Under the pieces are notes generated by a model. The model did not search any database, had not been told where the DNA came from, and worked only from the letters and a program-made list of their open reading frames with translations. Source: Candidatus Eiseniibacteriota bacterium (GTDB taxonomy: Bacteria; Arandabacterota; Arandabacteria; JAGLYR01). Taken from it: a stretch of 8,678 bases of DNA. How positions within the stretch are numbered: the stretch's first letter is position 1; each line of letters opens with the position of its first letter. A program made the translations under genes and the position numbers. Positions 2,084 to 7,901 of this stretch are shown here, one piece after another. Location of the stretch: the NCBI GenBank assembly GCA_023132135.1, contig JAGLYR010000078.1:1-8678 (forward strand), written 5' to 3'.

Positions 2084-2281
2084 ATGCCGAAAATCAAGAC
2101 AAATCGAAGCGCGGCCAAGAGGTTCAAGAAGACCGGGGGTAGCGGTCTCAAGAGAGAAAGAGCATACGCGAGCCACTTGTTGAGCAGCAAGTCGAGGGGC
2201 CGGAAGCGGCGTTTGCGCAAAGGTACGTCCGTGTCTTCCGCGGACCTGAGGCGCGCGAAGCGGCTGCTCGGCCTGGGTTAG
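2084..2281 (+). CDS. rpmI: 50S ribosomal protein bL35
   Basis: The 65-residue product is the usual length and composition for bL35: it opens [21 protein letters not shown] and ends with the characteristic basic stretch and the LRRAKRLL helix. It is a structural protein of the large subunit. The ATG at 2084 has a Shine-Dalgarno AGGAA that overlaps the stop of the preceding small gene. In most bacteria rpmI sits between infC and rplT. Here neither neighbour is present: the gene follows a small Cys-cluster protein and precedes a membrane glycosyltransferase fusion after a 13-base gap. The usual L20-mediated autoregulation of the infC operon may therefore not apply. Identification is confident from the N-terminal signature and size. 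Confidence 0.96.
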
Positions 2282-2294
2282 ATCTGGCGACACA

Positions 2295-4337
2295 ATGCCC
2301 CATGGTCTTGAGAAGCAAAAGCTGATACGGGGTTCTCGAACCTTCGCGGCCATCACCATCGCCGCCTTCGCTCTGCTGGCGGTTCTCACTACTGATGCTA
2401 CGACGTGGAAGGGCCTTGCGCAAATGAGGCCCTTCGCCCTTCCTCTGGTCCTTGGACTGGTGTTCATCAGCTGGTTCGCAAACGCGGTCAAGATCCGGAT
2501 CCTGGCAGATGGCATAGGTTCCAGGATCAGTGTGTGGTCCTGTTTTCGCGCGCATATGGCCAACCTGTTCCTGTCGGCCGTAACACCGTTTCAGACCGGG
2601 GGCGGAGCCGCGCAAATCTACGTTCTATGGCGCGAGGGTCTGTCCGTTTCCCGCGCTACGGCAGCGAGCCTCGCTGGCGCACTGATCACCATCGTCTTCC
2701 TCTTCTCGGGCGGAGTCGCTGTTCTTGTGATCAGACCCGGCCTCGCGGAGAACATTGCTGTGAGGGTGGTCACGATTTTCGTGATCACCGTGTTCTGCTT
2801 TGCGTTTTTCCTCTTCTGGGTTGGGTTTTTCAAGCCACAGTGGGTGTCTGGAATTGTCCGGGTTGCGGCGCGCGTGGCGGAGCGAGTTCCTTTTGTCCCA
2901 AAGGACCGGGTGCGGGAATTCCACGACTGGTTTTCCCAGGAGCTGGCGGATCTCATTGCCTACCTCCGGATCTACCTGACGGACAGGTTGGGAGTTCTTC
3001 TCAAGGCGGCGCCGCTCGGCGGTATCTCTATCCTCGCCAATTGCCTCATTGCATATGCCATCATGTTCGGGATGCGAATCAGCCGTGATCCGGGCGAGGT
3101 TCTTATGGCCCAGATGCTGATCTACTTCATTGTCTACTTCTCGCCGTCGCCGGGGGGAAGCGGAGTAGCGGAAGCGGGGGGGGCATCCCTCATGGCTGCG
3201 CTGATTCCCCTCCAGCAGCTGTGTGTCTACATTGTCCTCTGGCGTTTCTTCAGCTATCTTCTGGGCGTCGGTCTGGGAGCCGTTGTGATCATGGGTTTGT
3301 TGCGGAGCGGGACACAAGACGCAGAGCGAATTCTTGTGATCCGGCCAGACCGTCTCGGTGATGTGGTTCTGGCCACTCCTCTCATTCATGCTCTCCGGGA
3401 CCGGTATCCCAACGCGTACATTGCCGCCCTCGTTCGACCCTACACAGAGGCCGTGCTCCTGGGGAACCCGCGGTTGGACAGGATTCTCCTGGACGATCCT
3501 GCCGGTAGGGACAGCGGTTTTCGGGGATTCTGGTCCCTGGTGTTCCGTCTGCGAAGGGAAAGATTCGGGACGTCCCTCATGCTCATGCCCACTCGCCGTC
3601 ATGCGCTGGCCGTGCTCCTGGGCGGGATCCCCCGCAGAATTAGTGTAGGGCGGAAGCCGTATGAAGTCCTGACGGGGAGCAAGCCCGCCGGCCGGAACCG
3701 GGACGATCCTGTGAGGCACGAAGCGGACTACTGTCTTGACCTTGGGCGGGTTGTCGGAGTCGAATGCGGGGATCTGCGGCCGGAGGTTTTTCTTGACGAG
3801 GAAGAGAGGGCCGAGGCGCGTGGTTTCCTGGAAGCGGCCGGCTTGGGAACGGGCACCGTTGTGGGGGTGCATCCGGGTAGTGGGGGCTCGGCTCCGAATT
3901 GGGACAGGGAGCGATACCGGACTCTGGTCCGGGGTCTTGTAGAGACGTTGGGAAGTTGGATTGTGGTGACGGGGGATGGGAGTGAGCCACGGATGGACTG
4001 GGGTGGGGAGGGTTGGGGGGAAAGGGTTTTGGATCTCACGGGTCAGCTGACCGTTCGCAGGCTGATGAGTGTCCTCTCGTGTTTCGACGTGCTGGTGTCT
4101 TCGAGTACCGGCCCGATGCATTTGGCCGCAGCCCTGGGCATTCCCTGCGTGGCGATGTTCTGCCCGCGCAAGGCTTGCAGTCCGGCCCGGTGGGGACCTC
4201 TGGGCAACGGTCACCGGATCATTGTTCCCGGTTCGGAGCGCTGTGGCCGCTGCGGGCCAACCCGCGATCCAGAGTGCAGGTTTCAAGATATCCCTGTTTC
4301 TGATGTGTTGGCAATGGTTTCGGGGATTGTCGGATAG
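2295..4337 (+). CDS. Flippase-like membrane domain fused to a GT9 heptosyltransferase-type glycosyltransferase
   Basis: This 680-residue protein joins two domains normally found apart. Residues about 15-340 are polytopic membrane protein with the look of the lysylphosphatidylglycerol synthase transmembrane/AglD-like family, including the TPFQTGGGAAQ loop and a late PSPGGSGVAEAG loop. Residues about 344-680 are glycosyltransferase family 9. This half opens with RILVIRPDRLGDVVLATPL, has the HPGSGG donor-site loop at 526-531 and TGPMH at 605-609, and ends with the Cys cluster C650, C653 and C661 seen in many heptosyltransferases. The GT9 part should act on the cytoplasmic face, adding heptose or a related sugar to a lipid-linked core; the membrane part may anchor it or move lipid. 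It starts 13 bases after rpmI with only a weak ribosome-binding site, suggesting coupling. A later start would remove the first membrane helix. The frame is continuous, so the fusion is not an annotation error within this sequence. Confidence 0.9.
   Translation: MPHGLEKQKLIRGSRTFAAITIAAFALLAVLTTDATTWKGLAQMRPFALPLVLGLVFISWFANAVKIRILADGIGSRISVWSCFRAHMANLFLSAVTPFQTGGGAAQIYVLWREGLSVSRATAASLAGALITIVFLFSGGVAVLVIRPGLAENIAVRVVTIFVITVFCFAFFLFWVGFFKPQWVSGIVRVAARVAERVPFVPKDRVREFHDWFSQELADLIAYLRIYLTDRLGVLLKAAPLGGISILANCLIAYAIMFGMRISRDPGEVLMAQMLIYFIVYFSPSPGGSGVAEAGGASLMAALIPLQQLCVYIVLWRFFSYLLGVGLGAVVIMGLLRSGTQDAERILVIRPDRLGDVVLATPLIHALRDRYPNAYIAALVRPYTEAVLLGNPRLDRILLDDPAGRDSGFRGFWSLVFRLRRERFGTSLMLMPTRRHALAVLLGGIPRRISVGRKPYEVLTGSKPAGRNRDDPVRHEADYCLDLGRVVGVECGDLRPEVFLDEEERAEARGFLEAAGLGTGTVVGVHPGSGGSAPNWDRERYRTLVRGLVETLGSWIVVTGDGSEPRMDWGGEGWGERVLDLTGQLTVRRLMSVLSCFDVLVSSSTGPMHLAAALGIPCVAMFCPRKACSPARWGPLGNGHRIIVPGSERCGRCGPTRDPECRFQDIPVSDVLAMVSGIVG
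4000..4020 (+). other. Potential G-quadruplex motif inside the GT9 domain
   Basis: Four G-runs of 4, 4, 3 and 6 bases are separated by loops of one, one and two bases on the coding strand. Short loops of this kind favour a stable parallel quadruplex in DNA or mRNA. A further GGGGG and GGG lie at 3971-3980. It encodes a Gly/Trp-rich surface stretch (WGGEGWGER) of the glycosyltransferase. Confidence 0.5.
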
Positions 4338-4525: not shown

Positions 4526-5137
4526 ATGGGCAACCGCTACAGGCTGATTTCTCTGCTGGTCGTTGCGGTGGGGGCCCTGGTTGCTTCAACGGGTCCGGCT
4601 TTGGGGTTCACGCTTGAGGATTTTGAGGCGTACGTAAACAACGCCGAACTGAATGCAGCGTGGGTACCCTCGTCCAATGGAACGGAGTTCCTTGAAGCCA
4701 CCGCCGTCTTTGAACGTGAGTTGGCGATGGGCATTAGCTACAACTGCGGGCTGGGCGATTTCTCTACGGTATTCACGTATGATGTCGCCCAGGACTGGAC
4801 GTCTTTCACAACATTTTCGCTGATGTATCTGGGGACCGCAGGGAGCTCGAGCGAGAGACTCGTAGTCGAGCTCCGGGACCAGTGGGGCAATTACGTGAGG
4901 GGTCCCGCCGCGAGCGGCGCGACACAGGCACTTGGCTGGACAGAGTATTCGATGGATATCTCTGGCTGGGCCGATCGGGAGTGGATGAAGGAGATCAGGA
5001 TCTGGGTCGAGGCCGATGGCTCGGGATCGGGCAGTATCTACTTTGACTACCTTCTTCTACCCAACGCGATTTCCGTGGATGGAGACACCTGGAGCCGTAT
5101 CAAGTCTATCTACGGGAACAAGAAGCGCGGTCAGTAA
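4526..5137 (+). CDS. Secreted protein with a carbohydrate-binding-like beta-sandwich domain
   Basis: The 203-residue product starts with a typical Sec signal peptide: basic MGNRYR, a hydrophobic core to about residue 21, and a likely signal peptidase I site after A-L-G at 27. The mature part reads as one jelly-roll domain. It opens with EDFEAY and a later AAW, has alternating strands with W-T-S-F and L-G-W-T-E-Y, and closes with a SIYFDYLLL strand. This pattern resembles galactose-binding-like/CBM11-type modules, so glycan binding is plausible, but no catalytic residues are evident. After the domain comes a short tail, DTWSRIKSIYGN, then a basic end. The ATG at 4526 is preceded by AAAGGTGG at nine bases. 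It is monocistronic: its own promoter lies upstream and an intrinsic terminator follows 37 bases after the stop. It is not assigned to a named family. Confidence 0.85.
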   Translation: MGNRYRLISLLVVAVGALVASTGPALGFTLEDFEAYVNNAELNAAWVPSSNGTEFLEATAVFERELAMGISYNCGLGDFSTVFTYDVAQDWTSFTTFSLMYLGTAGSSSERLVVELRDQWGNYVRGPAASGATQALGWTEYSMDISGWADREWMKEIRIWVEADGSGSGSIYFDYLLLPNAISVDGDTWSRIKSIYGNKKRGQ

Positions 5138-5205: not shown

Positions 5206-5235
5206 TTGACAGTCTCAGACGAGGGACGATAAGGT
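5206..5235 (+). promoter_or_regulatory. Sigma-70-like promoter for the first HU gene
   Basis: A perfect TTGACA (5206-5211) begins three bases after the terminator T-run. TAAGGT (5230-5235) follows with an 18-base spacer; GATAAG with a 16-base spacer is an alternative -10. The leader would be about 135 bases long. It contains two hairpins: GCGGG/CCCGC (5272-5276 with 5280-5284) and GTTGC/GCAAC (5336-5340 with 5344-5348). Confidence 0.55.
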
Positions 5236-5377
5236 GGTTCAGCGCTTGGGGTTGCAGTCTTGGGCGCGGGAGCGGGATGCCCGCCCGGCCTGCTATGCCG
5301 TGGACGGACAGAGCGTTGTCACCGGACGGGAAGCGGTTGCTGAGCAACGGGATGCGTCAGTTGAAGGAGATAGTGCT

Positions 5378-5662
5378 GTGACGAAAGCCGATCTGGTTGA
5401 GGAAATCGCCAAGCGTACCGGTCTGACGAAGAAGGATATCGGGCAGGCTGTCGACGGATTCATCGAGGCGATGAAGAACGCCCTGACCGAAGGCCATCAC
5501 ATTGAAATCCGGGGATTCGGCACGTTCAGTGTGAAGGATCGCAAGGCGAGAACCGCCCGGAATCCTCGCACGGGGGAGGCAGTTCCTCTTCCTCCACGCC
5601 GTGTTCCGGTATTCAAGGTCTCCAGGGATCTGAAGGAACGGGTCCTCGGGAGCTGGGACTAG
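5378..5662 (+). CDS. HU/IHF-family DNA-binding protein (first copy)
   Basis: The product is 94 residues, the normal HU/IHF length. It begins TKADLVEEIAKRTGLTKKDI, the standard N-terminal helices, and carries the DNA-binding beta-arm with GFGTF and the hallmark RNPRTGE; the conserved Pro lies in this arm. These small dimers bend and compact DNA. The PLPPRRVPVFK segment after the arm is closer to IHF-like proteins than that of the second copy at 7638. I chose the GTG at 5378 because AAGGAGA sits seven bases upstream and the homology starts there. The frame stays open upstream to 5234, but that extension has no HU character and is part of the leader. It has its own promoter and no plausible operon partner; the next gene is over 300 bases away. 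Confidence 0.95.
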   Translation: MTKADLVEEIAKRTGLTKKDIGQAVDGFIEAMKNALTEGHHIEIRGFGTFSVKDRKARTARNPRTGEAVPLPPRRVPVFKVSRDLKERVLGSWD

Positions 5663-6272: not shown

Positions 6273-6284
6273 GAAGGGTTGGGG

Positions 6285-6695
6285 ATGACCAGAGAATGCG
6301 CGTGCTGCGGGAGCCAGGTTCGTCCCGGGAATCACTTCTGCACCCATTGTGGAATTGCGTGGGGGCAGGGAAAAGCGCCGCGGGCTGCCGTCGTTCTGCT
6401 GCATGGTCGCAGGGAGTGGGGTCGGCGAGCCATCACGAATCGAGCTGTACAGATTGGCAGCGGCAAATTCTGCGAAATCGTGTTCAATGATCCACTTGTT
6501 TCGGAAAGACACGCCAGGATCGTCTACTCCGACGGTTCCTTCTGGATCGAAGATCTCGCCAGCCGGAACGGCACCTTCGTCAATGGCGGGCGGATCGACA
6601 GGCGGAATGTCCTGCGGGATGGGTATCTGGTGCGGGTAGGTTCCTCTATGCTTCGATTTGAGCAGCATCCGGCCGAGCGCATATCCATAACATAA
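6285..6695 (+). CDS. Zinc-ribbon and FHA domain protein
   Basis: The 136-residue product begins with a zinc ribbon, C5-x2-C8 and C19-x2-C22. A forkhead-associated domain follows at about 36-128. FHA domains bind phosphothreonine peptides. The key positions are IGSG at 57-60, S73 and H76 in SERHARI, and the SRNGTFVNG loop at 93-101 with N95, G96 and N100. Only the usual Arg of the IGR motif differs, being Ser59 here. This suggests phosphopeptide reading in Ser/Thr kinase signalling, but no kinase or phosphatase gene is in the window. ATG at 6285 is preferred because AGGAAGGG sits seven bases upstream; a TTG at 6279 would add only two residues. It follows the TPR gene by 12 bases and is probably co-transcribed with it. 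Confidence 0.9.
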   Translation: MTRECACCGSQVRPGNHFCTHCGIAWGQGKAPRAAVVLLHGRREWGRRAITNRAVQIGSGKFCEIVFNDPLVSERHARIVYSDGSFWIEDLASRNGTFVNGGRIDRRNVLRDGYLVRVGSSMLRFEQHPAERISIT

Positions 6696-7637: not shown

Positions 7638-7901
7638 ATGAACAAGGCTGAGCTTGTTGCGGCAGTGGCGAAGGCGGCGAAGATGTCGAATCGCCAGGCG
7701 AGACTTACCGTGGATGCCACCCTGAATACCATCAGGAAGAACACGAAAAAGGGTGTGAACATTGCCGGCTTCGGCAGCTTCACGGTAACGCATCGCAAGG
7801 CAAGACGGGGGCGGAATCCTCGCACTGGCGAGGAAATCAAGATTGGCGCTCGGAGGAGTGTGAAGTTCAAGGCGGGCAAGGCGTACAAGGGTATGGTGTA
7901 A
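7638..7901 (+). CDS. HU-family DNA-binding protein (second copy)
   Basis: The 87-residue product starts MNKAELVAAVAKAAKMSNRQ, typical of HU. It has the GFGSFTV turn and the arm hallmark RNPRTGEEI, then IGARRSVKFKAGKAYKG. It is shorter and more basic than the copy at 5378, and the two differ widely outside the arm, so they are old paralogues rather than a recent duplication. A possible division of roles, one general HU and one IHF-like, is inference. The ATG has GAGGTGA upstream at five bases. Upstream lie a sigma-54-like site, a sigma-70-like site and a tandem repeat, which suggests regulated expression. A strong intrinsic terminator follows 23 bases after the stop. Confidence 0.96.
   Translation: MNKAELVAAVAKAAKMSNRQARLTVDATLNTIRKNTKKGVNIAGFGSFTVTHRKARRGRNPRTGEEIKIGARRSVKFKAGKAYKGMV

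Follow-up and report, generated by a model that had tools for sequence, protein, structure and literature searches.

One gene at positions 2295-4337 (+) encodes, in an uninterrupted frame of 680 aa with an ATG start and zero internal stops, both a complete polytopic membrane domain of PF03706 and a complete glycosyltransferase family 9 (GT9) domain. This fusion looks lineage-specific and assembled from two formerly separate genes. By analogy with related systems, we lean slightly toward a protein whose GT9 half glycosylates a lipid and whose membrane half translocates the product; that the fusion protein is catalytically active, which donor and acceptor it uses, and that it translocates lipids are matters of inference. 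The window, meaning the whole stretch of DNA analyzed, is a complete contig of 8678 bases (C322) within a 3.4-Mb genome of 345 contigs, and its features are collected in the table below.

Features of the window discussed in the text (positions are those of the window)
Feature	Position	Strand	Basis or remark
rpmI (ribosomal protein bL35)	2084..2281	+	PF01632, E 4.7e-20; ends 13 nt before fusion gene
Fusion gene, 680 aa, PF03706 (MprF/PplT-type) membrane domain + GT9 domain	2295..4337	+	ORF and profiles
Membrane half, residues 1-338	2295..3308	+	Profiles, alignment, AlphaFold2 model
Junction	3291..3326	+	ATG codon 333 at 3291; TTG codon 335 at 3297; linker of about 6 residues, 338-343
GT9 half, residues 339-680	3309..4334	+	Profiles, PDB alignments, model
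203-aa ORF, directly after fusion gene	4526-5137		Signal-peptide-like start; no Pfam or NCBIfam match
IHF/HU-family DNA-binding genes, two, ~2 kb apart	5234-5662 and 7638-7901		

The fusion protein was scanned against Pfam, and only PF03706 and PF01075 were returned at E <= 0.01. The PF03706 match spanned residues 20-328 and positions 5-302 of the 302-position profile (E 5.5e-33; 115 bits versus a cut-off of 33.4), and TIGR00374 matched residues 20-338 (E 9.7e-24; 84 bits versus a cut-off of 43). PF01075 matched residues 487-653 (E 4.3e-13; 49.6 bits versus a cut-off of 22), while the N-terminal part of the GT9 half was covered by TIGR02201 (345-647) and TIGR02195 (345-644); PDB entry 3tov aligned with residues 342-644 (E 2.2e-18). 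These E-values rule out chance similarity and, since both Pfam matches exceed their curated cut-offs, they confirm the observation of a flippase-like domain joined to GT9. The preliminary description had placed an LPG-synthase/AglD-like polytopic domain at about residues 15-340, running without interruption into a complete GT9 domain at about 344-680. The single frame was borne out, the first domain proved to be a complete PF03706/TIGR00374 domain at 20-338, and GT9 homology extended over residues ~343-680.

The full-length AlphaFold2 model, for which 32 homologues were aligned, was confident in the membrane half, over residues 10-340 (pLDDT mostly 85-98). From its helix list we read six spanning helices (7-32, 48-73, 118-146, 154-179, 232-259, and 306-337) and two hairpins (80-96/102-113 and 266-282/287-300). 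When the modeled membrane half was compared with the PDB by Foldseek, ranks 1-6 were all MprF entries, and VIA gave six MprF entries with Z 16.4-19.8 over 252-269 residues, the next unrelated row scoring 6.6. A sequence profile search of the PDB with the membrane half returned only designed proteins, at E > 0.1, and the likeness to MprF came from the fold search. As modeled, then, the membrane half folds like MprF, both hairpins included; of the ~800 residues in an MprF chain, only the first ~300 match it. The TPxQTGGG motif is retained at residues 97-104 and YFSPSPGGSGVAE at residues 281-293. The fusion keeps every residue that is invariant across an alignment of 33 proteins (T97, P98, Q100, T101, and G102-G104), along with near-invariant positions such as P284, P286, G290, E293, and R317. 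The loops carry 17 Lys and Arg residues on the side of the N and C termini versus 5 on the opposite side. Because of this charge difference, an N terminus inside, and six spanning helices, the C terminus and with it the GT9 half are predicted to be cytoplasmic, a topology that follows our reading of the modeled helices.

GT9 is best known from LPS core synthesis. The GT9 half is complete at the sequence level, where it aligned with 3tov, WaaF, and WaaC. In the alignment, Asp356 (within RPDRLGD) sits at the position of WaaC Asp13, which we take to be the catalytic residue. An STGPMH motif lies at residues 604-609, in which Ser604 occupies the place of the Asp in the (D)TG..H or (D)SG..H motif of WaaC/WaaF; near relatives of the GT9 half often have Ser or Asn there too. 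The GT9 half was modeled weakly (mean pLDDT 63, from nine shallow alignment rows), and the best structural matches of this model were the GT9 enzymes 3tov, 1psw, and WaaC, of the WaaF/WaaC type. In the full-length model the GT9 residues had pLDDT values of mostly 25-60 and the GT9 half was unfolded, because the alignment had no GT9 rows; as a view of the interface between the halves, this model was therefore rejected. Distant viral GT9 rows added for that model were rejected, as they misaligned onto the membrane half. With a profile score above the cut-off and a matching fold, albeit in a weak model, the GT9 half qualifies as a member of the family. It fell below every LPS heptosyltransferase equivalog cut-off (TIGR02193, 24.9 of 185.3 bits; TIGR02195, 71.1 of 134.6; TIGR02201, 80.2 of 170.2) and, given also Ser604 in place of Asp, the sugar is therefore uncertain. 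In these two respects it departs from WaaF, WaaC, WaaQ, and the Veillonella protein 3tov, with which it shares the fold family and the Asp at the WaaC Asp13 position; those enzymes are, moreover, soluble or peripheral and have a single domain.

The two homologies meet at the junction. Membrane-domain homology stops at ~338 and GT9 homology begins at 335, the codon (TTG, 3297) to which the first residue of the stand-alone GT9 protein of genome G492 aligns. As they touch or overlap, there is practically no linker (about 6 residues), and so short a junction would place the N-terminal half of the GT9 domain, in which Asp356 lies, at the membrane surface. Two separate genes could also have been merged artificially, by a join in the assembly, an indel, or the loss of a stop codon, which we consider highly improbable. 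The gene lies on a single MAG contig with the nearest comparison genomes only at class level, stops occur in the other two frames within ~70 bases downstream of the junction, and the GT9 half is somewhat atypical in its codon use (0.089, where 24 genes of the same genome average 0.171 with an sd of 0.034). However, homology runs in one frame as far as the junction and onward from it, leaving no gap in which an indel could hide, a random in-frame join exactly at a domain boundary is unlikely, and two short window genes, at 4526-5137 and 6279-6695, show codon deviations as large as that of the GT9 half.

The source genome has five PF03706 copies, and 43 matches were found across the phylum comparison set of 8 genomes. 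Only the window copy has a 695-aa open frame, the next longest (503 aa, G007:C123) lying at a contig end. In a tree, five class relatives each contributed a single stand-alone gene to the group of the membrane half, which also took in two loci labeled Poribacteria (support 0.87), and the membrane half is orthologous to the separate-gene proteins of those five relatives. All 48 named-genome loci from a pattern scan were likewise stand-alone, with open frames of up to 499 aa, the shortest of them cut by a contig end, and no GT9 gene lay near any of the 48 within up to 6 kb on each side. The membrane protein of relatives thus has no GT9 partner nearby, and the partnership is therefore not ancient.

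The GT9 half has its closest relatives elsewhere. They were stand-alone in 16 of 16 genomes of another phylum, with best matches of 43-50% identity in 15 and 42% in one, and further stand-alone relatives were found in G211 (42% identity) and G209 (39%). A tree placed the GT9 half in one group with the G211 gene and those members of the 16-genome phylum that were sampled (support 0.98), separate from the remaining GT9 genes sampled in the source genome; the G209 gene grouped elsewhere. Most likely, the GT9 half was acquired horizontally and then fused.

Searches of 682 genomes, mostly at E <= 1e-40 and one of them with the membrane half alone, so that very divergent fusions could escape, found no second PF03706+GT9 fusion. 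In G253, G195, G023, G047, G038, and G495, matches extended through a stop and beyond the junction; they were considered as adjacent split pairs and rejected, since no membrane gene of the PF03706 family lay upstream, and in G495 a further GT9 gene occupies that position. Other long GT9 frames were also rejected as instances of the same fusion: they were Wzy_C+GT9, GT2+GT9, or GT9+HAD proteins, or had GT9 as their sole Pfam match. The preliminary description had taken separate genes in relatives, with a stop or start at the junction, as the mark of a sequencing or local fusion artifact. The halves are indeed separate in relatives, but they lie at different places in the genome and are not neighbors divided at the junction, which supports a lineage-specific gene fusion and gives no indication of a sequencing slip. 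The same description regarded a multi-pass partner as atypical for GT9; unusual it is, but not unique. In G010 (L013:456-2576), a PF04932 O-antigen ligase-type domain and GT9, tested with Pfam, form one protein of ~710 aa, and L143:3547-5691 of G157, from the same phylum, probably encodes the like, to judge from its similar length and GT9 match. These proteins share with the fusion a GT9 domain behind a polytopic membrane domain, and differ in that the membrane domain is PF04932. Two further GT9 architectures were a GT2 + GT9 fusion of 782 aa (L015:582-2927, G055) and a GT9 domain with a HAD-type hydrolase domain in 540 aa (L019:1369-2988, G016).

It is conceivable that the two halves act independently, the membrane half continuing in bulk lipid translocation and the GT9 half being a passenger, perhaps also translated by itself from ATG 3291 or TTG 3297 within the gene. 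The orthology of the membrane half to stand-alone proteins in the five class relatives fits such independence, as does the alignment of the stand-alone G492 protein from its first residue, and a GGGAG stretch stands 11 nt before ATG 3291. A purine stretch near an ATG, however, is no evidence of its use, and the other PF03706 copies of the genome are distant, so the functions are not shown to be separable. We judge independent halves to be quite unlikely.

No glycan genes lie beside the fusion gene, whose neighbors are rpmI, the 203-aa ORF, and an IHF/HU-like gene. Co-transcription of rpmI and the fusion gene is possible, and rpmI stands outside the proposed mechanism. In the window, rpmI has no rplT beside it, and a short ORF at 1777-2076 carries a CPVCGM..CC cysteine motif and has no family match.

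A lipid A/core cluster is found on contig C140, with LpxC and an MsbA-like ABC protein (L027:3687-5564), both recognized by profile, and several GT9 genes, together with proteins presumed from their sequence to be LpxB-like and BamA-like. RfaE domain II, encoded outside C140, and LpxC both scored above the family thresholds, which makes synthesis of lipid A and ADP-heptose plausible. In LPS synthesis the substrate of GT9 enzymes is lipid A-core, and the exporter of lipid A-core is MsbA. The main rival to glycosylation followed by translocation draws on this cluster: the membrane half would be a mere anchor or platform presenting the acceptor, the GT9 half would add a core sugar to lipid A-core, and MsbA would export the product. 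The occurrence together on C140 of the MsbA-like transporter, LpxC, the LpxB-like and BamA-like proteins, and several GT9 genes agrees with such an anchor, as does a GT9 relative in G003 that lies in a cluster with GT2 and O-antigen ligase genes (L101). Yet the fusion keeps all motif residues that are invariant in stand-alone members, which an anchor would not need, and its gene lies outside the core cluster; we hold an anchor to be rather unlikely.

Two other PF03706 genes of the source genome, on C29 (L080) and C101 (L082), adjoin a GT2 gene, so in this genome too the family is paired with glycosyltransferases. The arrangement is like that of AglD, whose glycosyltransferase is a GT2, but with separate genes. 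Among GT9 genes of the other genomes, two at L129:4894-7691 (G353), and similarly in L128 and L130, adjoin a phosphoribosyltransferase-domain gene, presumably an adenine phosphoribosyltransferase; the arrangement may possibly recycle adenine nucleotide freed by ADP-sugar use.

In the reading that we slightly favor, the GT9 half, a GT-B enzyme, would sit at the cytoplasmic membrane surface and add a sugar to an inner-leaflet lipid, the donor being ADP-heptose or a related nucleotide sugar. The attached MprF/PplT-type scramblase (flippase) half would then move the glycolipid to the outer leaflet, and selectivity would come from the proximity of enzyme and transport domain, as proposed for MprF. 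The protein may be the dedicated membrane glycan-assembly enzyme suggested at the outset, with a membrane half most like the lipid scramblase domain of MprF. Whether a single chain both glycosylates and flips independently of MsbA, its GT9 half making a new, possibly heptosylated, glycolipid for the scramblase half to export, is a narrower proposal and an unlikely one. If true, it would place a GT9 enzyme outside lipid A-core or protein substrates and equip it with a built-in translocase.

Known systems offer partial parallels. The fold of the membrane half, a C-terminal cytoplasmic lipid-modifying enzyme, and the proposed logic of modification followed by translocation are shared with MprF. 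There, in contrast, an aminoacyl-tRNA-dependent synthase (PF09924, not matched in the fusion) takes the place of the glycosyltransferase. PaMprF scrambles many lipids without added energy (PMC11980842), and the same paper, citing Hauser 2022, has the MprF transport domain also fused to O-antigen ligases and glycosyltransferases. AglD and PplT proteins are likewise single chains that unite a PF03706 membrane domain with a glycosyltransferase on the cytoplasmic side; in AglD the glycosyltransferase is N-terminal (PMC5898192), whereas in the fusion GT9 is C-terminal and GT2 was not matched. The gpgSDF operon of Pseudomonas aeruginosa pairs a membrane-lipid glycosyltransferase with a PF03706-type predicted flippase (PMC12713373), but in separate genes and with a family 4 type glycosyltransferase, and the fusion scored below the cut-off of NF053789 (GlcN-PG flippase GpgF; 62.1 bits, cut-off 320). 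A literature search, with a coverage that ended short of the PplT preprint (Hauser 2022), found no report of the Pfam pair PF03706+PF01075. Each part, and PF03706-glycosyltransferase fusions as such, is already known; GT9 as the C-terminal partner is not seen in the other genomes searched.

Fusions reveal which enzyme and transporter share a substrate. A GT9 enzyme joined to an MprF-type domain would bring the GT9 family among the enzymes attached to that domain, and would extend the idea that a promiscuous scramblase domain is adapted to its substrate by the attached enzyme. As the functions of the two halves are distinct, the model of selectivity by proximity could be tested by separating them.
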